Source of the DNA: Spirochaetaceae bacterium | GTDB lineage: Bacteria > Spirochaetota > Spirochaetia > DSM-27196 > SKKC01 | NCBI GenBank assembly: GCA_007694005.1 | Contig: RECN01000047.1 | Coordinates: 1-59,516, forward strand | Direction of reading: 5' to 3' | DNA: 59,516 nucleotides | Shown here: positions 32,807-45,997 of the stretch, piece after piece | How positions within the stretch are numbered: position 1 is the stretch's first letter | Layout of the letters: each line of letters starts with the position of its first letter | Translations under genes and position numbers: made by a program | The notes under the pieces: generated by a model | Told to the model about the DNA's origin: nothing | What the model saw: the letters and a program-made list of their open reading frames with translations, nothing else | The model's database searches: none

Positions 32807-33223
32807 TTACGAGCGCCGTCTGCGTCGGAATAAGCGGTTCCAGAGCGAAACGATCCACATCCAGAATCGTTTCCCGCGCCCGGGATTGCGAAGTTTGTCC
32901 AGTCTCTGATACGCCTCAGCCACCTCGTCGGTCGCCAGAGGTCTCCGCTGGTTGTTCTCGTCTATTTCCATCTCAAGCAGTTCAGTTTCGTCGTGTTTGT
33001 CCATAACGCGGACGGTGATGGATGTCCACCCGAGCTGTCGGGCCGACTCGAGTCGCCGGTGCCCGGCAATCAGTACTTTTTCGGGCGTGATCACGACAGG
33101 ATTCATGAGTCCATGCGACTTCATGCTCTCTTTCAGCGACGCGAGATCACCGAGATTCTTTCGTATTCGTTTCTTTAATACAATTTCGTGAATTGGTACC
33201 TGCATAATGTGTCCCGGTTCCAT
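32807..33223 (-). CDS. small ParB/Srx-fold protein with basic, tryptophan-rich tail
   Basis: 138 residues. Residues 7-100 form a ParB N-domain-like fold: PIHEIVLKKRIRKNLGDLASLKESMKSHGLMNPVVIT, GHRRLESARQLGW (equivalent to the ParB GERRxRA CTP/DNA motif, with His for Glu) and IDENNQRRPLATDEVAEAYQRL. There is no HTH or dimer domain, so this is not the chromosome-partition ParB. The C-terminus (FWMWIVSLWNRLFRRRRRS) looks like an amphipathic or membrane-touching helix plus five arginines. The ATG overlaps the stop of the PBP gene by one base (TGATG), so it is coupled to cell-wall synthesis. A second ATG (33205) is possible. Function unknown. Confidence 0.78.
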   Translation of the reverse strand: MEPGHIMQVPIHEIVLKKRIRKNLGDLASLKESMKSHGLMNPVVITPEKVLIAGHRRLESARQLGWTSITVRVMDKHDETELLEMEIDENNQRRPLATDEVAEAYQRLDKLRNPGRGKRFWMWIVSLWNRLFRRRRRS

Positions 33224-35781
33224 CAGTCGAGAAGCGGATTACCGTCTCCTTCGTCGTCAATGTCGTCTTCAAACCGTGCATCATCAAAGTCGATATCGGC
33301 GTCAAAATCAAAATCGCTATCCCACGTATCGCCAGGGCTGCTGTCACCGAGAAGCTCGTCGAGCGTGGGAATCGCGGAGTCAAGCTGCGCGCGACTCGGA
33401 ATGAGCGCCTCACTGGTGGCGATGCTTCTGAGACGGTCGGACCGTTGTGACGCTTCTGCCGCAGTCTCTTCAAGCGATGGAGCAAACTCTCGCGGTTCGG
33501 TTCCTGGTATAAACAGCTCGGTTCTGCGGCGGCCGGTATATCCGCTCGGTGCTCTCAATCCGCTCGGGATTGCTATTTCGACTTCAACGAGACCATCGGG
33601 TCGCTCGAAATCGATCGATGGGAGATCTTGATGAATCGTGTTCATGTATCCGCCCCAGACAGGGCCAGCTAATGCAGCTCCATACTGATTGGTCCCGAGG
33701 CTTCGGCCGCCGCGGTCAAATCCGTACCAGATCGTGGTTGTATAATACGGGGAGTACCCCACGACCCATCCGTCAGACCAGTTCTGTGTTGTTCCGGACT
33801 TAGCCGCCATAGGCATAATGGGATTCTGGGCCCGGAGGGTTCCGTCCGTGAAAACACCGCGCATGAGATCGGTCATGATGTAGGCCGCTTCGGGGCTGAC
33901 AATCTGACCCGCGGCACCACGTCGTTGCTGTTCGATACGAAGGTCCCGCTCAGGCTCGGCGATAACGCGGCCGCGCTGGTCTTCGATATACCGGACGGCG
34001 ATGGGGTCGACCTGTCGGCCACCTGAGGCAAACGTTGCGTATGCGCGGGTCATTTCCAGAGGACTCACCGAGGAAACTCCCAGCGCTACCGGATAGCGTC
34101 GCTCAAGGCCACGTCCGGCCATGTCTGATTCAGGAATACCCAGAAGGGCGGCTGAGACACCGAGCGCAGTGGTGAAACCCGTCCGGTGGAAGACGCGGAC
34201 TGCAGGGATGTTCAGCGAGCGATTAAGCGCCTCGCGAACGAGCATGGGGCCGTTCCAGTTACCCGCATAGTTGCGCGGTGTGTACATGCTGCCGTCTTCG
34301 TTACGGAATACGACGGGCGAGTCGTAGAGCATGGTCGCGGGGGTGATGGCCTGCGAGTCGATGGCGGCAGCGTAATACAGGGCCTTGAACGCTGAACCCG
34401 GAGTTCGCCGCCCCGAAACGGCGCGATTCAACTGATCGATGCGTTCAAACTGCGCGCCACCGATCATGGCCGTGATATGGCCGTCGCGGTTATCGAGTGT
34501 GACCAGCGCGCCCTGCACCTGATCCTGCTGCTGCGTCGAACGTCTCGTAATCTGATTCATGCGAGTCGCGTGATAAATACCGTCCGAGACGTTCGGTGAG
34601 AAAAGCAGCGAAGTCATGCTGACGATGGGAGCGATGCGTTCGTCGTAGAGTTCCTGTGCGGCTCTGCGATTCTGCAGACCGGAAACCTGCAGATCCGGGA
34701 GGTCAAACGCGAGGCCCAGAAGATCGAGGAGCGGGACTATGTCGCGCGAAGCCCGCGAGGTTGCAACCTCGCGCGCCCGGCGGACACTTGCGTTCGCTCT
34801 TTCGAGCCCTTCGCGAAGATACTGTTCACCCTGTCTCTGATGGTCAAGATCGAGGGTCGTGTGGATCACGAGGCCAGCTCGGTTGATGTCCACCGGTCGA
34901 CCGAGAAGAATATCTCCCTGTAACTGTCCACGGACATACTCGCTGAAATAGGGAGCTTCGTCCGAGCGGTCGAGAAACGCGCTCGATATGTTCGACCGCG
35001 TAAAGTCATAGTTCGCCCAGTATTCCTCAAAGGAGAAATCAGCTTCGCTGCGACTGATATACCCTGCGTTCACGACCGCGTTGAGAATGACCCTCTGCAT
35101 GTTACGAGCACGTTCAGGATTGCGCAGCGGGCTGTACCGCGAGGGGTTCGCCAGCTGAATCACGAGCATTACCGACTCGGCAGGGGTGAGCTCCCGAGCC
35201 GAGTGACCAAAGTAGAACTGACTTGCGGCTTCAACACCGTATGTGTTGTGACCGAAATACATGCGATTGAGATAGGCTTCGATAATTTCGTGTTTCGTCC
35301 AGGTGCGCTCCAGCTGGAACGCCCACCAGAGTTCCCGGAGTTTTCGTGCAACCGAGATATCGTCCCGGTCGTCGAACATGTGCCCGGCGAGCTGTTGTGT
35401 TATCGTGCTCCCGCCCGACACATAACGCCCGGCGAAGATGTTCCATGCCGCACGTACGGTTCCCCGTACGCTGAATCCGTTATGACGAAAAAAATCCTGA
35501 TCTTCGCGAACGATCAGGGCGTAGATGAGATGGTTTGGAAGTTCGTCGATTGAGACAATGTCTCGTCGCTCGGCCGAAAAGAATTCGGTGATCAACCGGC
35601 CGTGACGATCGAGGACCTGGGACGGAAGGGCGAGCTCTCCGTCACCGAACTCGTCAATATTACGAATATTTCGGGTGGAGGCGAGCGCGAGACCAAGTCC
35701 GATACCAACCGTTATCGCTATAAAGGCAGCAAAGGCTATAAGAACGTTCAGAAGCACCTTGCGACTACGAGGAAGGTTCAT
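33223..35781 (-). CDS. bifunctional penicillin-binding protein 1A (GT51 and transpeptidase)
   Basis: Polymerises and cross-links peptidoglycan in the periplasm. 852 residues: TM helix (about 10-33), GT51 domain with catalytic E93 (EDQDFF) and GGSTITQQLA, a linker (about 300-420), and a transpeptidase domain with S463 in SAFK, S522-L-N524 and K661-S-G-T. The C-terminal tail (about 750-852) is disordered and ends in an Asp/Phe-rich acidic stretch (DSDFDFDADIDFDDARFEDD). The start ATG has no SD. The -10 box of a strong promoter lies 6 nt upstream, which implies a leaderless mRNA. The ParB-like gene follows with a TGATG overlap. Confidence 0.95.
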   Translation of the reverse strand: MNLPRSRKVLLNVLIAFAAFIAITVGIGLGLALASTRNIRNIDEFGDGELALPSQVLDRHGRLITEFFSAERRDIVSIDELPNHLIYALIVREDQDFFRHNGFSVRGTVRAAWNIFAGRYVSGGSTITQQLAGHMFDDRDDISVARKLRELWWAFQLERTWTKHEIIEAYLNRMYFGHNTYGVEAASQFYFGHSARELTPAESVMLVIQLANPSRYSPLRNPERARNMQRVILNAVVNAGYISRSEADFSFEEYWANYDFTRSNISSAFLDRSDEAPYFSEYVRGQLQGDILLGRPVDINRAGLVIHTTLDLDHQRQGEQYLREGLERANASVRRAREVATSRASRDIVPLLDLLGLAFDLPDLQVSGLQNRRAAQELYDERIAPIVSMTSLLFSPNVSDGIYHATRMNQITRRSTQQQDQVQGALVTLDNRDGHITAMIGGAQFERIDQLNRAVSGRRTPGSAFKALYYAAAIDSQAITPATMLYDSPVVFRNEDGSMYTPRNYAGNWNGPMLVREALNRSLNIPAVRVFHRTGFTTALGVSAALLGIPESDMAGRGLERRYPVALGVSSVSPLEMTRAYATFASGGRQVDPIAVRYIEDQRGRVIAEPERDLRIEQQRRGAAGQIVSPEAAYIMTDLMRGVFTDGTLRAQNPIMPMAAKSGTTQNWSDGWVVGYSPYYTTTIWYGFDRGGRSLGTNQYGAALAGPVWGGYMNTIHQDLPSIDFERPDGLVEVEIAIPSGLRAPSGYTGRRRTELFIPGTEPREFAPSLEETAAEASQRSDRLRSIATSEALIPSRAQLDSAIPTLDELLGDSSPGDTWDSDFDFDADIDFDDARFEDDIDDEGDGNPLLD

Positions 35782-35854: not shown

Positions 35855-35885
35855 AAAAAAAGGGCCGGTTCTGCAGAACCGGCCC
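35855..35885 (-). terminator. intrinsic terminator of the mla operon
   Basis: A perfect 24-bp palindrome (35862-35885; arms of 12 bp, centre CTGCAG), followed on the minus strand by seven T (35861-35855). It ends transcription coming from the PEGA-protein gene about 145 nt upstream and insulates the PBP promoter just beyond. Confidence 0.9.
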
Positions 35886-36030
35886 AACCGTTCGGTGTCG
35901 GCGTACTATAGTAAACTGGGAGGGGAACTAAAGCAGCCGACATACATGATTATCGTCTCCCGACGAGAATCCTTAACTAAATTCTTACTCCGATTTTTGC
36001 CGTTCGGCAAGGCCCCTGATACACGCCGGA

Positions 36031-37065
36031 TCAATCCTCGTTGGGGGCCGATTCCTGCAGCTCGAGAATGTCGAGCAGAAGGCTCAAATCCGCCTGATAT
36101 GACCGGCCGGATTCGGCGACAAAGTCCTGACTGACACTGCGGTCGCCAATCTGAAAACGCAGGGTATTCGGACCCGGCTCTACGTCGATTGTCGTGCCGA
36201 TGCTGCCGGTCAACAATCTCCCGTTGAGAGTAACCAGTGCACCGCGAGGGCCTGAAATCGTCAGACGGGCCGGTAAGGGCTCGAGCACCAGCTCGAGGGG
36301 CCGAATCCGTCCGCGTTCGACAGCGGTGGTCCTGGTGACGACCTGATACCCTTCGGGTATGAACTCGACGCTGCGGAAGCCGGAAGAAAGGAAGACGCGT
36401 GACCGTTCGTCGGGACTAACGGGTTCGCCGTCCACGCGCAGCTCGTAGTCTATCTCTGATAATGAAATCGTTTCACCTGATCTGTCAACGAGATCAACTC
36501 TGAAGGCACCGATATCACGAGTGTATGGTTGGATCCTCAGCTGTATTTCCTCGTCCTGAAGGTATTCGGGAAAGGTTTTGCCGACAGGGAGGAAGGTTAC
36601 GGCAAGCGGGTAGCCGTCGGGCCCTGGAATACGCTCCGGTCGGGTGGTTGCTGCAACCCGAATGCGTGGGTCTTCCTGCACTGGAATCCTGATCCTGGTG
36701 TTCGCGCGACTGATAAATGGTTCGAAATGAAGTCTCTGACCGCTGGTCGTGACCGGGCCTTCAGACTGCGGAACTGTGGCCAGACTTCCGTACAGGAGAA
36801 TTGCGATAGTCAGGTCTGTTCTTGAGGCGACGGAAGGTGGCAGTTCAGCGTGTATCTCGATAGCTTCGAAAAAAAGCGGCTCGTCGATCTCAATCAGGAC
36901 TATGTCCGCGAGTCTCAGGGACAGTTCTATTGGCTGTGGATCTGCGGCACGCACGAGACTGGTTCCGACGTAGCGACCGACCACGGTCTCCGACGCGGTG
37001 ACAGGTAAACCGGTGAACAGCAGTATTGTGATGGCGCGCATTAACAATCGGGGTCTGCTGATCAT
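36031..37065 (-). CDS. secreted protein with C-terminal PEGA-like domain
   Basis: 344 residues. Signal peptide (MRAITILLFTGLPVTASE, with the longer start MISRPRLL preferred because AGG lies just upstream), then two or three beta-sandwich-like regions, and at about 265-335 a PEGA-type repeat (ARLTISGPRGALVTLNGRLL ... VEPGPNTLRFQIGDRSVSQDF). No enzyme motif. Probably periplasmic or surface-bound. Last gene of the seven-gene mla operon, 49 bp after the M23 peptidase, and followed by the palindromic terminator. I do not recognise the N-terminal family. Confidence 0.72.
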   Translation of the reverse strand: MISRPRLLMRAITILLFTGLPVTASETVVGRYVGTSLVRAADPQPIELSLRLADIVLIEIDEPLFFEAIEIHAELPPSVASRTDLTIAILLYGSLATVPQSEGPVTTSGQRLHFEPFISRANTRIRIPVQEDPRIRVAATTRPERIPGPDGYPLAVTFLPVGKTFPEYLQDEEIQLRIQPYTRDIGAFRVDLVDRSGETISLSEIDYELRVDGEPVSPDERSRVFLSSGFRSVEFIPEGYQVVTRTTAVERGRIRPLELVLEPLPARLTISGPRGALVTLNGRLLTGSIGTTIDVEPGPNTLRFQIGDRSVSQDFVAESGRSYQADLSLLLDILELQESAPNED

Positions 37066-37114
37066 TTACCTGAGCCATCCTGTGCGACAGAAAAATACGC
37101 GATGTAGCTTATAC

Positions 37115-38140
37115 TCACCGAAAGCCGTGAAGAAACTGTACCGGATCACGGGCCGTCCCTCGAACGCGAATCTCAAAGTGCAGATGCGGCCCCGTACTCA
37201 GTCCTGTGTTTCCTACTTCACCTATAATCATACCTGAAGTAACGTTCGCGTTCAACTCGCTGTGTATGCTACGTAAATGCCCGTAAAAGCTCGTGAATAT
37301 CTCATCGTGTTCGATGATAACGTAGTAGCCGTAGACTGGATCCCATCCGGCCGCTGCTACCGAACCCTCGCGTGCCGCGCGTACCGGAGTACCTTCTGGT
37401 GCGACCAGGTCGACACCGGTATGGTAACTCGGTCGGTTCGTGAACGGGTGGATTCGTGCTCCGAATGCCGATGACATGCGGGTGAACTCGACGGGACTTC
37501 GGAACAGCACCCCCAGAAAGGCTCGTCGTTCGTCCGCAGAAAAGTCAGTTCCCGGGAAGAAGGCAAATCGCAGACTCTCGTTTCTGACCGTGATGGTCAC
37601 GAGCTGGTAGTGATCGCGAGGATCGCCGGAGCCCTCTGCCACACCGTTCCTGTCGGGATCCTGCGGAGGCAGGAAGGGGTCGTTCTCGGTAAGGAATGGA
37701 TTCTGCTGTTCTTCGACGTCTTCCGGTGAAAGCCGCGCTGAAAGCATGTACTCGAGGTCGGTATGCGGCTGCAGGGGCACGAATACCCCCGGCTGGTTTG
37801 GTATCAGTATGGCATCGATATCGGTCGGTAAATCGGCGGAGCGGAGGCGATTAATCGTTGCAAGCGTCGACTGGGGCAGGGTGGTTCGGGAAGAAAGCCG
37901 AAAAAAGCTGTCATCAGGCTGAAGATTGTAACGGAACAGAAAAAGCGGCGGACGGTCGCTACCGCGTTGAGATGCCTGACGCGACCTCTGTATGTCCTCC
38001 TGCAACTGAGCAAAGAGAAGATCTGAGCGATTCAGTTCTTCGATTAGCGGGTATTCTCCATACACAGGCGAGAGAGACACGAGAACGAGACATGTGACCA
38101 GTAGCGTACGCCGAAAAAAATCGACCCCGGGATCATTCAC
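37115..38140 (-). CDS. LysM-like / M23 peptidase (murein hydrolase family)
   Basis: 341 residues. N-terminal signal or anchor (RRTLLVTCLVLVSLSPVYGEY), a LysM-like domain (about 70-125, YNLQPDDSFFRLSSRTTLPQSTLATINRL), a linker, and a C-terminal M23 domain (about 225-340). The metal ligands appear in YHTGVDLVAPEGTPV (H and D) and in GPHLHFEIR (HLH), so it is predicted to be active on peptidoglycan cross-bridges. I chose GTG at 38140, which overlaps the upstream gene by 8 bp and has GGAGG 11 nt before it. Part of the mla operon. Confidence 0.87.
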   Translation of the reverse strand: MNDPGVDFFRRTLLVTCLVLVSLSPVYGEYPLIEELNRSDLLFAQLQEDIQRSRQASQRGSDRPPLFLFRYNLQPDDSFFRLSSRTTLPQSTLATINRLRSADLPTDIDAILIPNQPGVFVPLQPHTDLEYMLSARLSPEDVEEQQNPFLTENDPFLPPQDPDRNGVAEGSGDPRDHYQLVTITVRNESLRFAFFPGTDFSADERRAFLGVLFRSPVEFTRMSSAFGARIHPFTNRPSYHTGVDLVAPEGTPVRAAREGSVAAAGWDPVYGYYVIIEHDEIFTSFYGHLRSIHSELNANVTSGMIIGEVGNTGLSTGPHLHFEIRVRGTARDPVQFLHGFR

Positions 38141-38552
38141 GACCAGTGCTCCCTCCTCCAGCGGCGAATCCGATGGAAGCAACGAGGGCGGCGAGCAGGG
38201 GGAGTGCACCGGCCAGTCCTGTGTAGCTGTATACGAGCAGCGTTGCATAGGCGCCGACTGCGGCCAGTCCGGTTGCAATCCACACCGCGCCCGATCTACG
38301 CCTTTGATGCGACGAACCGTGACTGTGACGGCGAAACTTCCCGAGCAGCCAGACGGTGAGTGCGGCTGCGCTTACGGTGAGCACGACGACACCGTATACA
38401 GCAGGTGCCCGGGTGGCTGCAAACCAGAGGGGGAGTACAATGCCTCCAGATATGATAATAATCGCTGCAAAGGCGATCATGGGAGCGGCGAGGGTTTTCC
38501 CGATGCGGTGCCATCCACGCGCGATCCTCAAACGGATACGTTTCTGTTTCAT
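38133..38552 (-). CDS. four-TM membrane protein, function unknown
   Basis: 139 residues with a basic N-terminus (MKQKRIRLRIARGWHRIGK) and four hydrophobic helices (about 22-48, 52-72, 88-107 and 112-130) separated by a basic loop (GKFRRHSHGSSHQRRRSG). No family recognised. It lies between the TPR lipoprotein (5-bp gap) and the M23 peptidase (8-bp overlap) in the mla operon, which suggests a membrane partner of one of these. Confidence 0.68.
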   Translation of the reverse strand: MKQKRIRLRIARGWHRIGKTLAAPMIAFAAIIIISGGIVLPLWFAATRAPAVYGVVVLTVSAAALTVWLLGKFRRHSHGSSHQRRRSGAVWIATGLAAVGAYATLLVYSYTGLAGALPLLAALVASIGFAAGGGSTGRE

Positions 38553-38557
38553 GAAAA

Positions 38558-39493
38558 CTATCTGGTCCTGATCGATGATGTCTGAAGCGCTTCGCGCCTC
38601 TGTGCGAAGCCTTCTGATGCCTCGAGATTACCCGTCGCGTGAGACAGGTCCTCGAGGGCTGAAAGTGCCTGTATCATCCCACTGGCCGAAGAGATACTCT
38701 CGTACACCGCGAGTGAACGCGTCAGGTAATCGAGTGCATCCTCCATCCGTTCCATGCGGAAGGATATCATTCCAAGAGCATACAGATCGGATGCGATCCC
38801 GCGGGGATTCTCCATAGCACGATCCAGATCGAGAGCCTCTTCGGCAAACGCAAGTGCTACCTCGTAGTTTCCCCGTCGAGATTCAACCGATGCGAGCATA
38901 AACAGGTTTGCAGCCAGTTCGCGTCGTCGGTTCAGCTGCCTGTTTATCGACATCGCTTCTTCAAGAAGAACGCGCGCGTCGTCAAGACGGCTTGAGGATG
39001 CCTGTGTGCTTCCGAGGTTGTGTAGTACCACGGCCCGTTCAGCCACGCTGTCGGTTTCGTTGAAAAGCTCAAGCGATGTCTCAAATAAGGCGAGTGCCTG
39101 ATCGAAATTACCCTGTTGGAGGTTGAGCTCTCCCTGATTGTTTATGGATAGTGCGCGCACGCGCGTGCTTCCGATCCGCTGTGCGATCTGTTCTGCTCGC
39201 GCATACTGTTCGGCGGCCGTTTCGAAATCTCCCTGCGCCTGCCAGGTGCGGCCGATGGAGTTATGCATGTCCGCAACACCTTCGCGCTCATCGACCGACG
39301 TGTTCAGGGTCAGTGCCAGCTCGAAAAATGCTCTCGCCTGCTCATAGTCGGCGCGATCGAAGGCTGCATTCCCGTAACCGGCGAACTGTGCCGCACGATT
39401 CCGGGTGAGCCGTACCTCATCCGGCTCGCGAGGTGTGCTTGAGCAGGAAAAAAACAGGGGAAACAGCAGTGAAAGAATGATCAGGCGTTTCAT
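38558..39493 (-). CDS. TPR lipoprotein
   Basis: 311 residues. Lipoprotein signal with relaxed spirochaetal lipobox LFFSC (C17), then six or seven tetratricopeptide units (GYGNAAFDRADYEQARAFFELAL, NSIGRTWQAQGDFETAAEQYARAEQIAQ, NNQGELNLQQGNFDQALALFETSLELF and so on). The ATG overlaps the mlaD stop (TGATG), so it is coupled to the MCE protein. It may dock MlaD or the M23 enzyme in the periplasm. That is inference. Confidence 0.85.
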   Translation of the reverse strand: MKRLIILSLLFPLFFSCSSTPREPDEVRLTRNRAAQFAGYGNAAFDRADYEQARAFFELALTLNTSVDEREGVADMHNSIGRTWQAQGDFETAAEQYARAEQIAQRIGSTRVRALSINNQGELNLQQGNFDQALALFETSLELFNETDSVAERAVVLHNLGSTQASSSRLDDARVLLEEAMSINRQLNRRRELAANLFMLASVESRRGNYEVALAFAEEALDLDRAMENPRGIASDLYALGMISFRMERMEDALDYLTRSLAVYESISSASGMIQALSALEDLSHATGNLEASEGFAQRREALQTSSIRTR

Positions 39494-40557
39494 CAGAATT
39501 GTGCCTCCCGGAAGCTTTCGACGTTCGACGGTTGATCGATTCGTTCGGGAATTCCTCCGCGAAGCAGGGGATTATTCCGCAGACCGGTAAGCACATCCTG
39601 TCCGACAATGATTGCTTCGCGCCCCTCTTCAATGATCGCCGCAAACTGAGGCGTCTGTGACCCGGCGAATCGGGCTACCTCGTTCAGTTCATCGAGGGTA
39701 GCGTTGATCGAGGTGAAAATGTCGAGTATCTCGTCGAAGAGTACGTTATCGTCGTCAAACAGGGTCGCAAGTGTTCCGCTCGCACCGAGGAGCCGCGGTA
39801 CAATGCCGGCAGGATCCCGGAACTCGTCGCTCGCGGCTGCTGCGTTGTCGGCGATGCGATTGACCGAAACAAGAAGGTCATCGCTGCCTGCAAGCAGCGA
39901 CTCGGTCTGCTCAAGACGAGCTTCGACCGTGGCAAGCAGACTCAGCACCTGCGTAACGGTCTCGGCAATAGGACCCTCAGTGACCGTTCCATCGAGCGTA
40001 CCGGCGAGGGTGTCGAGAATCAGTTCCGTCGACCCGAGAATCTCCGAGATGCTGTTGAGCAGGGGGTCGAGCTCGGCGAGCAGGGTCGAAATGGGGTCGG
40101 GCGGTTGCGATCTCTCTACGAAACCTACCTCCCGAATAGCACGGCCGATGTCGCTGTTCCATTCCGGAATCACGCTGAACTGCTCCAGCGGCTCGCTCGA
40201 CCGCGTTCCTCGATGAAGGACGAGTGTTCCGCCAAGGATGGGGTTTGAGGCCAGCTCGACAAGCGACCCTTTCGTTACGAGGTGTATATAGCGCTCCCGA
40301 ATGTTGAAGGTTACATCGACGTTGTTGTCTTCGTTGAGGGTGATATTGGTAACGCGGCCAACCTCAAATCCGCGGAAGTCGACCGACATGCCGATATTCA
40401 GACCGCTCGCCGAGCTGAGTTCTGTTGAGTACTCATATCGAGGCTCAAACCAGCCCTGACCTCTGCCGATCGCGACCATAAGGACGATGACAAACACGAC
40501 CGCGAGAATGGTAAACGCGCCGACGATCTGTGTGGCAAAGCGTATTCTGAACTTCAC
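39493..40557 (-). CDS. mlaD: MCE-family lipid-transport protein (MlaD type)
   Basis: Periplasmic, membrane-anchored lipid-binding ring subunit of an Mla-type ABC system. 354 residues: one TM helix (about 10-30), the MCE domain (about 40-120; SGLNIGMSVDFRGFEVGRVTNITL is typical), then a long helical C-terminal region (about 150-340) longer than in E. coli MlaD (183 aa), perhaps forming a needle-like tube. I chose GTG at 40557 because AGGAGG lies 8 nt before it. A TTG at 40587 would add 10 acidic residues. Order mlaE-mlaF-mlaD is typical, but mlaB and mlaC are not here. Confidence 0.9.
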   Translation of the reverse strand: MKFRIRFATQIVGAFTILAVVFVIVLMVAIGRGQGWFEPRYEYSTELSSASGLNIGMSVDFRGFEVGRVTNITLNEDNNVDVTFNIRERYIHLVTKGSLVELASNPILGGTLVLHRGTRSSEPLEQFSVIPEWNSDIGRAIREVGFVERSQPPDPISTLLAELDPLLNSISEILGSTELILDTLAGTLDGTVTEGPIAETVTQVLSLLATVEARLEQTESLLAGSDDLLVSVNRIADNAAAASDEFRDPAGIVPRLLGASGTLATLFDDDNVLFDEILDIFTSINATLDELNEVARFAGSQTPQFAAIIEEGREAIIVGQDVLTGLRNNPLLRGGIPERIDQPSNVESFREAQF

Positions 40558-40605
40558 GCTGTCATCCTCCTCGACCTCGCGTGCCAATTGTTGCTGAACG
40601 CGTAA

Positions 40606-41415
40606 CTATCCCTCATCATCGATTTCTCCTAACAGCGACAGGATATCACTGTCGAATGTAGCCGCCTGATCGAGCACATCGGACACGATATCACGGACGA
40701 CCGGATTATCTGAAGCGGCCACCTGGTCCGTACTTCCGTGTATCAGCAGTTCGCCTTCATCGATCACGATAATTTCGTCTGCGAGCTGGGACACCACGGT
40801 GGCGTTATGGCTGACGACGACGAGGGTTGTGCCGGCGTCCTTCAGCTGCCGTAGCATACTCAGAATGCGATCGACGCCGGTCCGGTCGACGAAGGTGGTG
40901 GGTTCATCAAGAATGAGCAGTTTCGGCTCGGTAAGAATAGCCCGCACGAAGGCAACGAGTTTTGCTTCTCCGGCGCTCAGGGACGCGGGTCTGAGATTCA
41001 GGTCGTCGGTGAAGCGGATTCGTTCGACGGCCCGCCGGATCTTCTTGTCCCGTTCAGCGTTGCTGAGTTCCGGATAGTGCTGTTCCAGCGGCAATGCCAG
41101 ATTTCGGTACACACTCATATTCTGCCAGAGCGCCGCATCCTGAAAAACGAAACCGCAGACTTTCCGGAGTCGTCGGAGCTCCCGGTTGTTCAGGGGGCCG
41201 AGCAGGCGACCAAAAACCCTGACCTCGCCCGATGTCGCGGGAATGACACCCGAAGCCGCCTTGATAAAGGTAGACTTGCCCGACCCGGAACGTCCCATGA
41301 CTGCGACCGTGCTGCCCTCGCGTATCTTTACGGAAATGCCTCGTACCGGTGTGAAATTCTCGAATTCCACTATCAGGTCTTTCGTGTTCAGTGCCACTCC
41401 TGCATCATCTGCCAT
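40606..41415 (-). CDS. mlaF: ABC transporter ATP-binding protein (MlaF type)
   Basis: Cytoplasmic ATPase that drives lipid movement through MlaE/MlaD. 269 residues with Walker A GRSGSGKST (K47), Q-loop VFQDAALW, signature SLSAGEAKL (Ala for the second Gly of LSGGQ), Walker B LLILDEP and switch His VVVSHN. The D-loop reads FVDRTG. The C-terminal 40 residues are acidic and extend beyond a plain ABC domain. ATG 12 bp downstream of mlaE. Confidence 0.93.
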   Translation of the reverse strand: MADDAGVALNTKDLIVEFENFTPVRGISVKIREGSTVAVMGRSGSGKSTFIKAASGVIPATSGEVRVFGRLLGPLNNRELRRLRKVCGFVFQDAALWQNMSVYRNLALPLEQHYPELSNAERDKKIRRAVERIRFTDDLNLRPASLSAGEAKLVAFVRAILTEPKLLILDEPTTFVDRTGVDRILSMLRQLKDAGTTLVVVSHNATVVSQLADEIIVIDEGELLIHGSTDQVAASDNPVVRDIVSDVLDQAATFDSDILSLLGEIDDEG

Positions 41416-41427
41416 TGCGGTCTGCTC

Positions 41428-42210
41428 CTACAGGTAACTCACGAGGGTTATGGCAGCATTCGCAATCACCGTGAGCGTGATGCCCTGTCCGACCGCTTTA
41501 ATGGCTCGGATCGGTACTTCGGTTCCCGCCCGCTCAACCGAAAGCCCCTGATACGTTGCAACGCTCCCTATGATCATCCCAAAGATAATGCTTTTCGCGA
41601 AACTTGCGACGAAATCCCGGAGCGTTACTGAACCATAGAGTCCGAACAGGTATTCCTCCAGGGCAAGCGGCTGTACAAGCTGCGTAACAAGAAATGAACC
41701 GACAAGACCGAAGAAGTTGAAGTAGATGTTCAGGAGTACGAGTGAAATGACCACGCCGAGAACCCGTGGCACCGCGAGGTAGGTGATCGGATTCAGACCC
41801 GTGGCCATATACGCCTCGATCTGATGATCAACAACCATTCCGCCGAGTTCGGTCGAAATCGCCGTGCCGGAGCGCGCGATCACGATGAAGGCTGTCAGAA
41901 TAGGTCCAAGTTCACGGGTAATGACCGCAATCAGTATTGTGTATATGAGCTGTCCCTGCCCGAGCTGTGGCAGAATTGACAGCCCCTGTATGATGATTAC
42001 CGCACCGATGGCAAGACTGAGTACCGCAACGATGCTGAGCGCGTTGACACCGGTGAACAGGATCTGCATCTTGAGCACGCCGCCGCCGCCGCCACGGCGC
42101 TGCATCTGGAAGTATGCAGGTATGTTGCGGACTATTTCGACCATGAATCCGAGAGCGTACAAGAGCTCTTTCGGCGCGCGCAGAACGCGCTCGCCTACTG
42201 CTTCAAGCAT
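41428..42210 (-). CDS. mlaE: ABC transporter permease (MlaE type)
   Basis: Inner-membrane permease for phospholipids. 260 residues with the MlaE features: an N-terminal amphipathic helix (about 1-30), five or so TM helices, and the conserved segment ITRELGPILTAFIVIARSGTAISTELGGMVVDHQIEAYMATGLNP, which holds the coupling-helix E-x-G-x-M region. ATG with AGGAAG about 7 nt upstream. First gene of the mla operon. It diverges from the Crp-TPR gene. Confidence 0.94.
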   Translation of the reverse strand: MLEAVGERVLRAPKELLYALGFMVEIVRNIPAYFQMQRRGGGGGVLKMQILFTGVNALSIVAVLSLAIGAVIIIQGLSILPQLGQGQLIYTILIAVITRELGPILTAFIVIARSGTAISTELGGMVVDHQIEAYMATGLNPITYLAVPRVLGVVISLVLLNIYFNFFGLVGSFLVTQLVQPLALEEYLFGLYGSVTLRDFVASFAKSIIFGMIIGSVATYQGLSVERAGTEVPIRAIKAVGQGITLTVIANAAITLVSYL

Positions 42211-42404: not shown

Positions 42405-43379
42405 GTGCCCCGAGCAATGACCTACAAACCCGGTTCCGTCATATATTTCAGGGGTGATGTCGGCGATAAAATTTATGTTCTCAAGAACGGACGCGTTATG
42501 TTGACGTCAGAGGACATTGAAACCGGCGAAGAGATTCAGGAGCGTGTCGGGGTAGGCGAGTTTTTCGGCGTGAAAAGCGCGTTCGGGAAATATCCCCGGG
42601 AGGAGAACGCTCAGGTGCTGTCGCCTAGCGACGTCATCATTTTTTCGGTTTACGAGTTTGAACAGTACGCTGCCGCCAACACCCGTGTCGTTCTCAAGAT
42701 GTTGAAAGTGTTCAGCACGCAGCTCAGGCGGATTCACACGAAGGTCACCAATCTCCTCGATCAGGCGGAACAGGTTGATCCGGAACTCGGGCTGTTTCGC
42801 ATTGGCGAGTACTATCACCGACGACGACAGTACAGCCAGGCCACGTACGCGCTTGAGCGGTATCTGGCGATATATCCAAACGGCCGAAGCTCGAAGCAGG
42901 CACGCGATCTTCTTTCAGAGGTTTCGTCCCACGCCGAGCGCTACAGCAGCGAGCAGACGACCTCGGGCGGACACGGCGAGACGGACGAACTGTCCGATCT
43001 TGGCAGGCGTTACCTGAAAGCTGTGAATCAGTACGGAAACGGCGACTTTGATGCCGCTTTCAATCTGTTTCGTGCGGTTGGACAGGAATCGGGCGAGCAT
43101 GGTGAGTACGGCCTGAAGAGTCTGTACGAAGCGGGGCGCTGCCTTCACGCACTCGGGCGACACGACGAGACCATACGACATTTCACCGCGCTGCTGCAGA
43201 AATTTCCGAAAATGGAGCAGTTACCGTGGGCTCTTTATTTTATTGGAATATCGTACAAAGAAAAGAACGAAAACGACCGCGCCTTGAGTTTCCTCCGAAA
43301 GGTACAGAGTATGGCGGGTAACGACGCGGAATTACGCAAAAAAGCTTCGAACGCGATAAACGCGCTGGAGTCGGAGTAG
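42405..43379 (+). CDS. cyclic-nucleotide-binding domain fused to TPR repeats
   Basis: 324 residues. Residues 1-120 form a cNMP-binding beta-barrel (YKPGSVIYFRGDVGDKIYVLKNGRVML, GVGEFFGVKSAFGKYPREENAQVLSPSDV). The phosphate-binding cassette keeps G and E-F-F-G but lacks the canonical R-x-A-x-V, so ligand binding is uncertain. The rest holds TPR-like repeats (GEYYHRRRQYSQATYALERYL, NGDFDAAFNLFRAV, LGRHDETIRHFTALLQKFP). There is no HTH, so it is a sensor or adaptor and not a transcription factor. GTG start with AGGAGA 9 nt upstream. A true Crp-type regulator follows 3 bp on. Confidence 0.82.
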   Translation: MPRAMTYKPGSVIYFRGDVGDKIYVLKNGRVMLTSEDIETGEEIQERVGVGEFFGVKSAFGKYPREENAQVLSPSDVIIFSVYEFEQYAAANTRVVLKMLKVFSTQLRRIHTKVTNLLDQAEQVDPELGLFRIGEYYHRRRQYSQATYALERYLAIYPNGRSSKQARDLLSEVSSHAERYSSEQTTSGGHGETDELSDLGRRYLKAVNQYGNGDFDAAFNLFRAVGQESGEHGEYGLKSLYEAGRCLHALGRHDETIRHFTALLQKFPKMEQLPWALYFIGISYKEKNENDRALSFLRKVQSMAGNDAELRKKASNAINALESE

Positions 43380-43382
43380 ATA

Positions 43383-44030
43383 ATGAACACGAATCTACCG
43401 GCATTTGAACGATTTGCAGTGTATTTCGAGCCGGGACAGATCATATTCTGTGAATACGAGCCAGGGGATTCCTTTTACCTCATTCAGGAGGGCAGGGTAC
43501 AGATCACCAAAATTATGGGGGATCTGGAAAAAACCATCGACGTGCTGAACCCGGGCGAGATTTTCGGTGAGATGGCGATACTGGAAGACTCTCCCCGTTC
43601 GGCAAGCGCCGTTTCCGTTGACCGGGTAAAGGCGCTGCATTTCAACAAGGCAAATTTTGAGATCCTCATGCAGGGGCAGCCACAGATTGCGCTGAAACTG
43701 CTCAAGCTCTTTACAAAGCGTATCTACGATCAGAGACGCCGTTTTATGATTCTGACCCTGTCTGATGTCAGCGCCAAGGTGGCAGACGTGTTTCTCATGC
43801 TCGATGAGACCGGCATGGCCACAGAGGCCGACGAAGAGCGGCGGGTCTTCCGTGTCAGCATTGACGATGTTGCGCATTGGGCCGGCATAAACACCGATCG
43901 TTGCCGGGAGGTGCTTCATCAGTTTTCGACGCAGCGGCGCGTCATCCTCGGAAAATCCAGTATTACCGTGAGTAACATCAACGAGCTGATCCGCTTTGTT
44001 TCCACGAGGCGCAAGAAAGACGGCTCATGA
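43383..44030 (+). CDS. Crp/Fnr-family transcriptional regulator
   Basis: 215 residues. The cNMP domain (about 10-115) contains FGEMAILEDSPRSASAV, which keeps the G-E and R-S of a cAMP-binding phosphate cassette. A dimer helix follows (LKLFTKRIYDQRRRFMI), then a winged HTH (about 150-210; VSIDDVAHWAGINTDRCREVLHQFSTQRRVIL). No FNR-type cysteine cluster. So a cAMP- or cGMP-responsive regulator is likely. It lies 3 bp after the Crp-TPR gene and just before the EAL gene. Confidence 0.88.
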   Translation: MNTNLPAFERFAVYFEPGQIIFCEYEPGDSFYLIQEGRVQITKIMGDLEKTIDVLNPGEIFGEMAILEDSPRSASAVSVDRVKALHFNKANFEILMQGQPQIALKLLKLFTKRIYDQRRRFMILTLSDVSAKVADVFLMLDETGMATEADEERRVFRVSIDDVAHWAGINTDRCREVLHQFSTQRRVILGKSSITVSNINELIRFVSTRRKKDGS

Positions 44031-44086: not shown

Positions 44087-45997
44087 GTGAGTATCATCGA
44101 CAGTATAGGGACGGCGTGCAGACGGTTGCCCGCGTGCCTTTTTTCGACTCATCGTGATTCCGAGCTGGCTCCCGTACAGGTGCGTGTAACGCTCATAGCC
44201 TTGTACAGCATCGTCATCGTCAGTCTGCTTGCCGCTCCCTACAACATCGTAATGGACCTGCGCGAGGAAGAGTTTTTTCTCGCGTTCACACAGATTCTGT
44301 ATCTCGGTATTCTGATTTCGGGCCTGATCTCGTTCTGGTACAGCGGGCAGGTCAGAGCGATACGCTCATCATTCACCGTCGCTGTGTTCATTCTGATCGC
44401 CGGAATTGGCGTCGGTGGCGGTGGGGTGCGGGGACTTGGTTTCCTGTACATCATTGGCAGTTATGGTGTGCTGTTCCTCATACTCGGCCGTCTCGGGGCC
44501 ATGATCGTGCCCGCCCTGGTGTTTCTCGCTGCTCTGCTGAACGTCGTGTTCGCCAACTACGGACCGCTTTCCTATCTGAACGATCCGGAGTTTGCCCTCC
44601 GGTATCTGATCATAATCGGGGCCTCTTCATCGCTCGGTGTTGCGACAGCGCATTATCAGCACCAGATCTTTCGCTTTTTTTATCATCTTGCGTATACGGA
44701 TGAAACGACCGGGCTTGCAAACCGCAGTCGCTTTGAAGCGCGCCTCGAACGTGAGATTCTGAAGCAGCATCGCCTTGAGTTTCCCGGATTCAGCCTGGTC
44801 GGGCTTAAGCTGCTCGACTTCGCCCGTATCAATACCTTCCACGGCTCTGAGTACGGCGATGCGCTGTTGTCGGAGCTGGCGTACCGCATTCAGACCCTTT
44901 GCGGGAGTCACGGTGTGCCTTCCCGTTACAGCGGGACCGTCTTTCTCTGTCTTGTTCCGTGGACCGAGCCGTATGAGCTTGAGGATTTCGGTCGGAAACT
45001 CGTCGAGTCCGTACAGCGCACCTTTTCGAGGGGCACGCAGTCTGTCAGCGTCCAGGCACTCGCATCAGTGACCATCTATCCCAAGGATGGAGAATCGGGC
45101 GCCAAGCTGATCGCGAATCTCATGGGCAGCTTTGTACATCTGAGAGATTATCCCGGTTTCGTAGCGTTTTTTGACGAAAACCTGTATCGACTTGAGGCTC
45201 ATCGCTATGCAGTCGTTCAGCAGCTACGCGGCGCGATAGAGAACCAGGAGCTGACGCTCCGGTTTCAGCCGAAACTGCTCGTTGAGGACGGCAGCTGTCG
45301 GGGGGCAGAGGTGCTCCTGAGGTGGAAAAACTCAATACTCGGAGACATTGGGCCCGATGTGTTTATACCTCTCGCCGAACAGGCAGGTTTCATAAACGAC
45401 ATTACGCGCTGGGTGATCCGCACCGCCGTGAATGCGGTCGAGCGCGTGTATCGTGAGCTCACGGCGGATGTCCTCGGCCATGGCTTTGTTCACGCCATCA
45501 ATCTTTCGCCACTTGATCTTGGGGATCCGGATTTTCCCGACTTCATTGCCGGTATTCTCGAAAACACCGATCTTCCGGCCGGAGCCCTGGAGTTCGAAAT
45601 AACCGAAGGCGTGATGATGGACGATAATCCTGCGATTCAACGTTCGCTCGAGTGCATTCGGGAAAACAGGTTCCGGCTGGCGATCGATGACTTCGGAACG
45701 GGTTACTCGAGTCTGAGTTATTTACACCGGCTGCGAATTCAGAACCTGAAGATCGACAAGAGCTTTGTCGCCGGTCTCTCCGAAGAGAACCCGGATTCAC
45801 CGGTGATTGATGCCATGCTTGCAATGGCTCGTTCCCTGAATGTAGAAACGACAGCCGAAGGAATAGAGACCGAGTTTCAGCAGGACTATCTGAACGAGCG
45901 GGGGTGTACCTTCGGTCAGGGCTGGCTGTACGCGAAACCGCTCGATACCGAAGCGTATATCGTCTGGTTGAAAGAAAAAGCCAGAAGTGGGAATTGA
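44087..45997 (+). CDS. membrane GGDEF/EAL protein, probable cyclic-di-GMP phosphodiesterase
   Basis: 636 residues: six or so TM helices (about 30-200, in a 7TM/MASE-like sensor), a degenerate GGDEF domain (about 205-365; TDETTGLANRSRFEARL is normal but the active loop reads RYSGTVF instead of GGDEF), and an EAL domain (about 375-625). The EAL motif reads EVL (GAEVLLRW) with the key Glu kept. DDFGTGYSSLSYL, KIDKSFV and TAEGIET are intact, so hydrolysis of c-di-GMP is plausible while synthesis is not. GTG start without a good SD. Its last 19 bases lie opposite the 3' end of the tRNA-Thr gene. Confidence 0.9.
   Translation: MSIIDSIGTACRRLPACLFSTHRDSELAPVQVRVTLIALYSIVIVSLLAAPYNIVMDLREEEFFLAFTQILYLGILISGLISFWYSGQVRAIRSSFTVAVFILIAGIGVGGGGVRGLGFLYIIGSYGVLFLILGRLGAMIVPALVFLAALLNVVFANYGPLSYLNDPEFALRYLIIIGASSSLGVATAHYQHQIFRFFYHLAYTDETTGLANRSRFEARLEREILKQHRLEFPGFSLVGLKLLDFARINTFHGSEYGDALLSELAYRIQTLCGSHGVPSRYSGTVFLCLVPWTEPYELEDFGRKLVESVQRTFSRGTQSVSVQALASVTIYPKDGESGAKLIANLMGSFVHLRDYPGFVAFFDENLYRLEAHRYAVVQQLRGAIENQELTLRFQPKLLVEDGSCRGAEVLLRWKNSILGDIGPDVFIPLAEQAGFINDITRWVIRTAVNAVERVYRELTADVLGHGFVHAINLSPLDLGDPDFPDFIAGILENTDLPAGALEFEITEGVMMDDNPAIQRSLECIRENRFRLAIDDFGTGYSSLSYLHRLRIQNLKIDKSFVAGLSEENPDSPVIDAMLAMARSLNVETTAEGIETEFQQDYLNERGCTFGQGWLYAKPLDTEAYIVWLKEKARSGN

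Follow-up and report, generated by a model that had tools for sequence, protein, structure and literature searches.

The mlaEFD locus and its gene starts

We analysed a window of 59,516 nucleotides, which is the whole of one contig (C121) of a 3.9-Mb assembly of a Spirochaetaceae bacterium. Seven genes run in tandem on the minus strand from position 42210 to 36031, in the order mlaE-mlaF-mlaD-TPR lipoprotein-4TM-M23-PEGA. This run had been read from the letters alone in a first-pass annotation, and it was recovered in the ORF list; Pfam searches bore out the identities given to the MlaE, MlaF, MlaD, TPR and M23 proteins. The nearest named records are Spirochaetales MAGs, SKXQ01000082 (MlaD of 97% identity) and SKKC01000378 (83%). 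The features are as follows, modules 1 and 2 being the two blocks of genes distinguished below.

41428-42210, minus strand: mlaE, ABC permease, module 1 (PF02405, E = 1.2e-53; order conserved)
40606-41415, minus strand: mlaF, ABC ATPase, module 1 (PF00005, E = 9.3e-30)
39493-40587, minus strand: mlaD, module 1, with a TM helix, one MCE domain, helices and a tail (PF02470, E = 1.4e-15)
39493-39576, minus strand: C-terminal tail of MlaD, candidate docking peptide, NNPLLRGGIPER..QP...FREAQF, residues 338-364 and stop (alignment of 45 orthologues and tail survey)
38558-39493, minus strand: TPR lipoprotein T, module 1 (TPR_12, E = 1.8e-31)
38133-38552, minus strand: four-TM protein X, a frequent but not constant member of module 2 (four hydropathy peaks)
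37115-38140, minus strand: LysM-like/M23 peptidase M, module 2 (PF01551, E = 1.4e-29)
36031-37065, minus strand: PEGA-like secreted protein P, module 2 (weak PEGA match; conserved family)
35862-35885, minus strand: intrinsic terminator, perfect palindrome GGGCCGGTTCTGCAGAACCGGCCC followed by T7
33223-35781, minus strand: PBP1A-type transpeptidase/transglycosylase, last gene of module 2 (TIGR02074, E = 1.7e-167, above cut-off)
42411-43379, plus strand: C1, cNMP-binding and TPR protein, divergent neighbour (PF00027, E = 2.7e-13)
43383-44030, plus strand: C2, CRP-like protein, divergent neighbour (PF00027, E = 1.7e-23)

The mlaD and T genes meet in a TGATG junction with a 1-nt overlap, as had been described, and 5 nt separate T from the 4TM gene. 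The 8-bp overlap noted between the 4TM and M23 genes holds with the M23 start at GTG 38140; an in-frame TTG at 38278 is an alternative start upstream, where the frame is also open. The start of mlaD is probably a GTG near 40557, approximately 30 nt past the TTG at 40587, as this matches the starts of its orthologues. The perfect-palindrome terminator was found at 35885-35862, and is the sole inverted repeat of at least 12 bp with arms within 60 bp in the 7.2 kb scanned. A promoter scan of the locus performed no better than shuffled sequences.

Four hydropathy peaks agree with the four membrane spans claimed for X, a protein with no firm Pfam match. The zinc motifs of M23 peptidases, HxxxD and HxH, are present in the window protein as HTGVD and HLH, and 82 of 94 orthologues match a strict pattern for both. 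The domain label given to the PEGA protein fell below the cut-off for PF08308 (13.6 bits against 20.8, E = 0.067), but P is a member of a conserved family, since a profile built for it (A3) recovered 137 strong members from 248 genomes of class Spirochaetia.

By Pfam matches and gene order, an MlaE permease, an ABC ATPase and an MCE-domain protein are encoded in one operon, which places the locus in the MCE/MlaEFD superfamily. The reported absence of mlaB was confirmed, as MlaE carries no STAS domain and the operon no STAS gene. That of mlaC was also confirmed: MlaC (PF05494) was found in 0 of 61 related genomes, with positive controls detected. None of 61 genomes had an above-cut-off match to MlaA (PF04333); one sub-threshold stretch was seen, in G031.

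The conserved neighbourhood proved wider than first described, reaching the PBP1A gene (33223-35781) on one side and the divergent CRP-like pair (42411-44030) on the other. C1 of this tandem pair carries TPRs, and both genes diverge from the operon. Past the pair, at 44087-45997 on the plus strand, lies a 636-aa membrane protein that reads by eye as GGDEF/EAL-type.

Two separable modules across Spirochaetia

We surveyed approximately 160 neighbourhoods, in which genes were called by a simple ORF finder and by profiles built from the locus. Many of the genomes are MAGs, and absence calls at contig edges, being unreliable, were set aside where seen. Among 61 relatives, mlaD, M and P were co-located across the order and in several further families of the class, and gene order was kept over many families, beyond what chance would give. 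The first-pass annotation had staked its reading on the four downstream genes staying next to mlaD in related genomes. A general separation was not seen, because these genes often remain beside mlaD, and to that extent the comparison across relatives agreed with it; the only inseparable partner of mlaD, however, was T.

We examined 134 loci of this mlaD type across the class, 123 of which had room downstream. T lay directly 3' of mlaD in 121 of the 123, in 63 genera and 30 families by assigned codes, and in most of them the spacing was -1 or -4 nt. The two remaining loci are explained by faults of ORF calling: one (L139) is a read-through ORF, where a profile search places T beside mlaD, and the other (L185) is a frameshifted mlaD followed by T. 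Outside the class but within the phylum, the pair was found as well (L106, L108-L111), and T was retained in families where module 2 is absent or distant (f24, f25, f27 and f75). A profile of T was then searched against 51 genomes, 15 with mlaD and 36 without, a full-length match being one of more than 120 bits. Full-length T lay beside mlaD in 13 of the 15, and the remaining two carried a diverged T at the same place (57 bits in G247, 50 bits in G179). Among the 36 mlaD-less genomes, the one with such a T match was G394; the match begins right at the end of a contig, so that mlaD may simply be missing from the assembly. This MCE protein thus very probably has T as its dedicated partner.

Two f27 genomes carry a further mlaE-mlaF-long mlaD set directly downstream of mlaEFD-T (L101:8759-11709 and L103:7396-10313). 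The MlaD of this extra set has a long C-terminal region, possibly a barrel like that of Veillonella MlaD.

The genes downstream of T behaved differently. In 81 loci with enough room beside mlaD, M followed in 59 and P in 54, and both were missing in f24, f25, f27, f75, f2 and f5. The 137 strong members of the P family were distributed over 102 genomes with this mlaD and 35 without. Of the 102 genomes that have both modules, 62 carry them no more than 9 kb apart, over many families; in five (G010, G250, G267, G352 and G409), some of which are near-complete, they lie far from each other on one contig, and in 35 further genomes they are on different contigs, partly through assembly breaks. Across genomes, mlaD and P co-occurred with an odds ratio of 22 (p of approximately 1e-24), uncorrected for shared ancestry. 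All 20 separate P loci have M with P; most also have PBP1A, many have X and several have the CRP-like pair. X accompanied M23-PEGA without MCE genes in L087, L089, L204 and L206-L209. A PBP1A gene is found 3' of P in most loci. In the stand-alone layout C2-C1 diverges from (X)-M-P-PBP1A, which leaves mlaEFD-T as a second, separable block. The seven genes are, then, two conserved neighbouring modules. Their frequent adjacency may reflect co-regulation or a functional link, and the CRP-like pair may regulate the wall genes, because it stays by M23-PEGA-PBP1A in several MCE-free loci.

The TPR lipoprotein and the MlaD tail

All 119 T proteins aligned (effective number 97) carry the lipobox cysteine, with serine at position +2 in 96%, and residues D224 and E228 are conserved in 100% and 99%, respectively. 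Pfam matches were to TPR families only, and no PF03886 (ABC_trans_aux) lipoprotein was found within the mlaEFD-T operon. The AlphaFold2 model of T is a seven-TPR solenoid (pLDDT 94.7), and the solved folds closest to it are the TPR domains of LGN and kinesin light chain, both of which bind peptides. Conserved groove residues cluster in TPR4-5 (H158, an aromatic at 198 (Y198), S202 and S205), although conservation in the groove as a whole was only marginally higher than at other non-signature positions (p = 0.04).

The MlaD profile matched Mce1 chains and YebT/LetB among solved structures, and the match extended along the needle-bearing Mce1 chain 8fed_B. In the monomer model, a TM helix (residues 9-44) is followed by MCE strands (50-127), putative needle helices (165-337, pLDDT approximately 50-70) and a disordered tail, with pLDDT below 50 at 355-364. 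No strand was predicted past residue 127. A Veillonella-type C-terminal beta-barrel was not found in this model, which has the disordered tail instead, and a barrel formed by the tail was rejected on the same ground.

Few parts of the protein are as conserved as the tail (NNPLLRGG...R...F). In an alignment of 45 orthologues (A1), N338, P340, G345 and R360 were invariant and F364 was conserved in at least 90%. Over the wider set, the full motif was present in 106 of 134 loci; several others were truncated or variant, and R360 was lost in several f30 loci. T-bearing loci outside the class (L108, L110 and L111) have an MlaD without the motif, and the tail was rejected as a universal ligand of T because those loci carry other tails.

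The genome has a second MCE locus (G000:C166; L094:7290-10705), which encodes MlaD2, a PF03886 PqiC-type lipoprotein, an MlaE with a STAS domain, and MlaF. The PqiC-type gene directly follows mlaD2, where T sits at the main locus, and MlaD2 ends soon after a similar LLRG motif, with no extra tail. Since the tail of the main MlaD is conserved and MlaD2 has no such extension, we infer from these sequences that the last 15 or so residues of MlaD are a candidate ligand for T. PF03886 genes were found at one per genome in 17 of 61 relatives, and at none of the mlaEFD-T loci. T appears to take the place of a PqiC-type lipoprotein, because the PF03886 protein is found at the second locus and never at mlaEFD-T. 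One PqiC-type lipoprotein, in G010 (L096:4742-6778), is 678 aa long, with a long C-terminal extension that gave a weak, sub-threshold DUF481 match; similar long frames were seen at the PF03886 matches of G008, G038 and G042. The extended protein may join an outer-membrane barrel to the dock.

A proposed docking model, its alternatives and related systems

We lean towards an explanation in two modules, with mlaEFD-T as a four-gene transporter in which T would serve as the outer-membrane dock for the MlaD needle. MlaE and MlaF, in the inner membrane, would drive lipid movement through an MlaD hexamer, whose MCE ring and helical needle would span the periplasm. The lipid anchor of T would probably sit in the inner leaflet of the outer membrane, and its concave groove would grip the conserved C-terminal tail of MlaD, so docking the needle there. 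T would stand in for MlaA and MlaC as well as for the PqiC-type ring, and the cargo would be phospholipid, not linked to LPS. Module 2 would be a wall-synthesis and remodelling set, often co-located with module 1. The docking role itself, drawn by analogy with MpcA and with PqiC, which takes up the C-terminus of PqiB at the outer membrane (PMC10897342), we consider an even call. We propose more tentatively, at somewhat short of even confidence, that this is a solution of the Spirochaetota's own, in which a lipid-anchored seven-TPR clamp reads the C-terminal peptide of MlaD for bulk phospholipid traffic in LPS-less diderms.

The face on which T works could be the inner membrane instead. T would then be an assembly factor, scaffold or regulator on the periplasmic side of that membrane, and MlaD would reach the outer membrane alone, its C-terminal tails perhaps assembling into a small hexameric barrel. 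TPR proteins act as scaffolds in many settings, the lipoprotein +2 rule may not hold in these spirochaetes, and the MlaD tail is not conserved in every T-bearing locus; moreover, Grasekamp et al. predicted tiny six-stranded barrels at the ends of some barrel-less MlaD hexamers (PMC10665443). However, T holds the gene slot that a PqiC-type lipoprotein occupies at the other MCE locus, and the monomer model predicts no strand in the tail. We judge this alternative unlikely, though it deserves weight. Still further from our preference is the possibility that the bond between T and mlaD is operon inertia and that T has an unrelated envelope role. Short, overlapping, translationally coupled genes are hard to separate, but T is lost along with mlaD, it stays with mlaD where module 2 lies elsewhere, and full-length T away from mlaD was not found in the genomes searched, apart from the one contig-edge case. 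We therefore give this reading very little credence.

The first-pass annotation had proposed a single machine of seven genes: the M23 hydrolase would make an opening in the peptidoglycan for the MCE tunnel, and the PEGA and 4TM proteins would form a scaffold. Linkage of the modules at 9 kb or less in 62 of the 102 genomes with both, over many families, and the strong co-occurrence of mlaD and P (odds ratio 22, p of approximately 1e-24, phylogeny uncorrected) speak for it. Against it, five genomes have the two modules on one contig but well separated, and 35 have module 2 without this mlaD; in the 20 stand-alone loci M23 and PEGA are never parted and PBP1A or the CRP pair usually accompanies them, and module 1 is intact with module 2 not nearby in f24, f25, f27 and f75. 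As an obligate unit the machine was rejected on account of these genomes, and in any form we think it improbable. What survives of the proposal is an MCE transporter that lacks MlaB and MlaC and has a constant extra envelope partner; a built-in hydrolase found no support, M23 being part of a 4TM-M23-PEGA-PBP1A set that is separable from mlaEFD-T and occurs where this mlaD type was not detected.

The locus shares MlaE, MlaF and MlaD homologues with the E. coli Mla system (MlaFEDB-C-A), but has no MlaB, MlaC or MlaA, a long MlaD and an added TPR lipoprotein, in a class without LpxC. The periplasmic protein of Sphingobium LinKLMN is of the MCE type, and LinN is a PqiC-type lipoprotein. As at mlaEFD-T, LinKLMN encodes a permease, an ATPase, a periplasmic protein and a lipoprotein together, although its role is linked to hexachlorocyclohexane use (PMC4289293). 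Brucella abortus MpcEFDA, a Mla-Pqi chimera that lacks MlaC and whose MpcA co-purifies with MpcE, MpcF and MpcD, is similar in its four genes, its MlaE/F-type ABC core, its lipoprotein and an MlaD with a long helical C-terminus (here in a monomer model, helices at pLDDT approximately 50-70); unlike T, its lipoprotein is PqiC-like and not a TPR solenoid, and MpcE bears a STAS domain (PMC12436622). The Mpc system resembles the second MCE locus more closely than mlaEFD-T. In E. coli PqiABC an MCE needle spans the envelope and a lipoprotein holds it at the outer membrane, as we propose for mlaEFD-T, but PqiB has three MCE domains, PqiA takes the place of the ABC core, and PqiC is an octameric toroid whose fold differs from that of T (PMC10897342). 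Veillonella parvula MlaEFD also lacks MlaA, MlaB and MlaC and has an elongated MlaD, which ends in a beta-barrel, whereas the spirochaete protein has a disordered tail and a constant T (PMC10665443).

A search for work on MCE proteins with TPR lipoproteins or in Spirochaetes, covering open-licence papers, returned nothing relevant, and we found no paper describing mlaEFD-T with its TPR lipoprotein, though one may exist. A 2025 preprint has mlaDEF already in the last spirochaete common ancestor, and a search of its text for MCE terms found no partner (PMC12236494).

Grasekamp et al. tied the missing Mla of Borrelia and Treponema to missing LPS (PMC10665443). LpxC (PF03331) was found in 0 of 248 genomes of class Spirochaetia, with positive controls detected, which, LPS status being judged by this one marker gene, is consistent with a class-wide lack of LPS. 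This mlaD was present in 115 genomes of the same sample. A role in LPS-linked asymmetry is unlikely for this MCE system, because MlaC and MlaA were not found in the 61 relatives and LpxC in none of the 248 genomes, and yet the system persists. The presence of mlaD in 115 genomes of an LpxC-free class counts against the published idea that the absence of Mla follows that of LPS, and points to a more general role in phospholipid transport. The position of the wall genes is accounted for by two modules without invoking a combined machine. For lipid passage across the periplasm in bacteria without MlaA, MlaC or LPS, T is a concrete and testable candidate for the outer-membrane end: its fold is unlike that of PqiC, and almost all loci examined have it next to this MCE protein.
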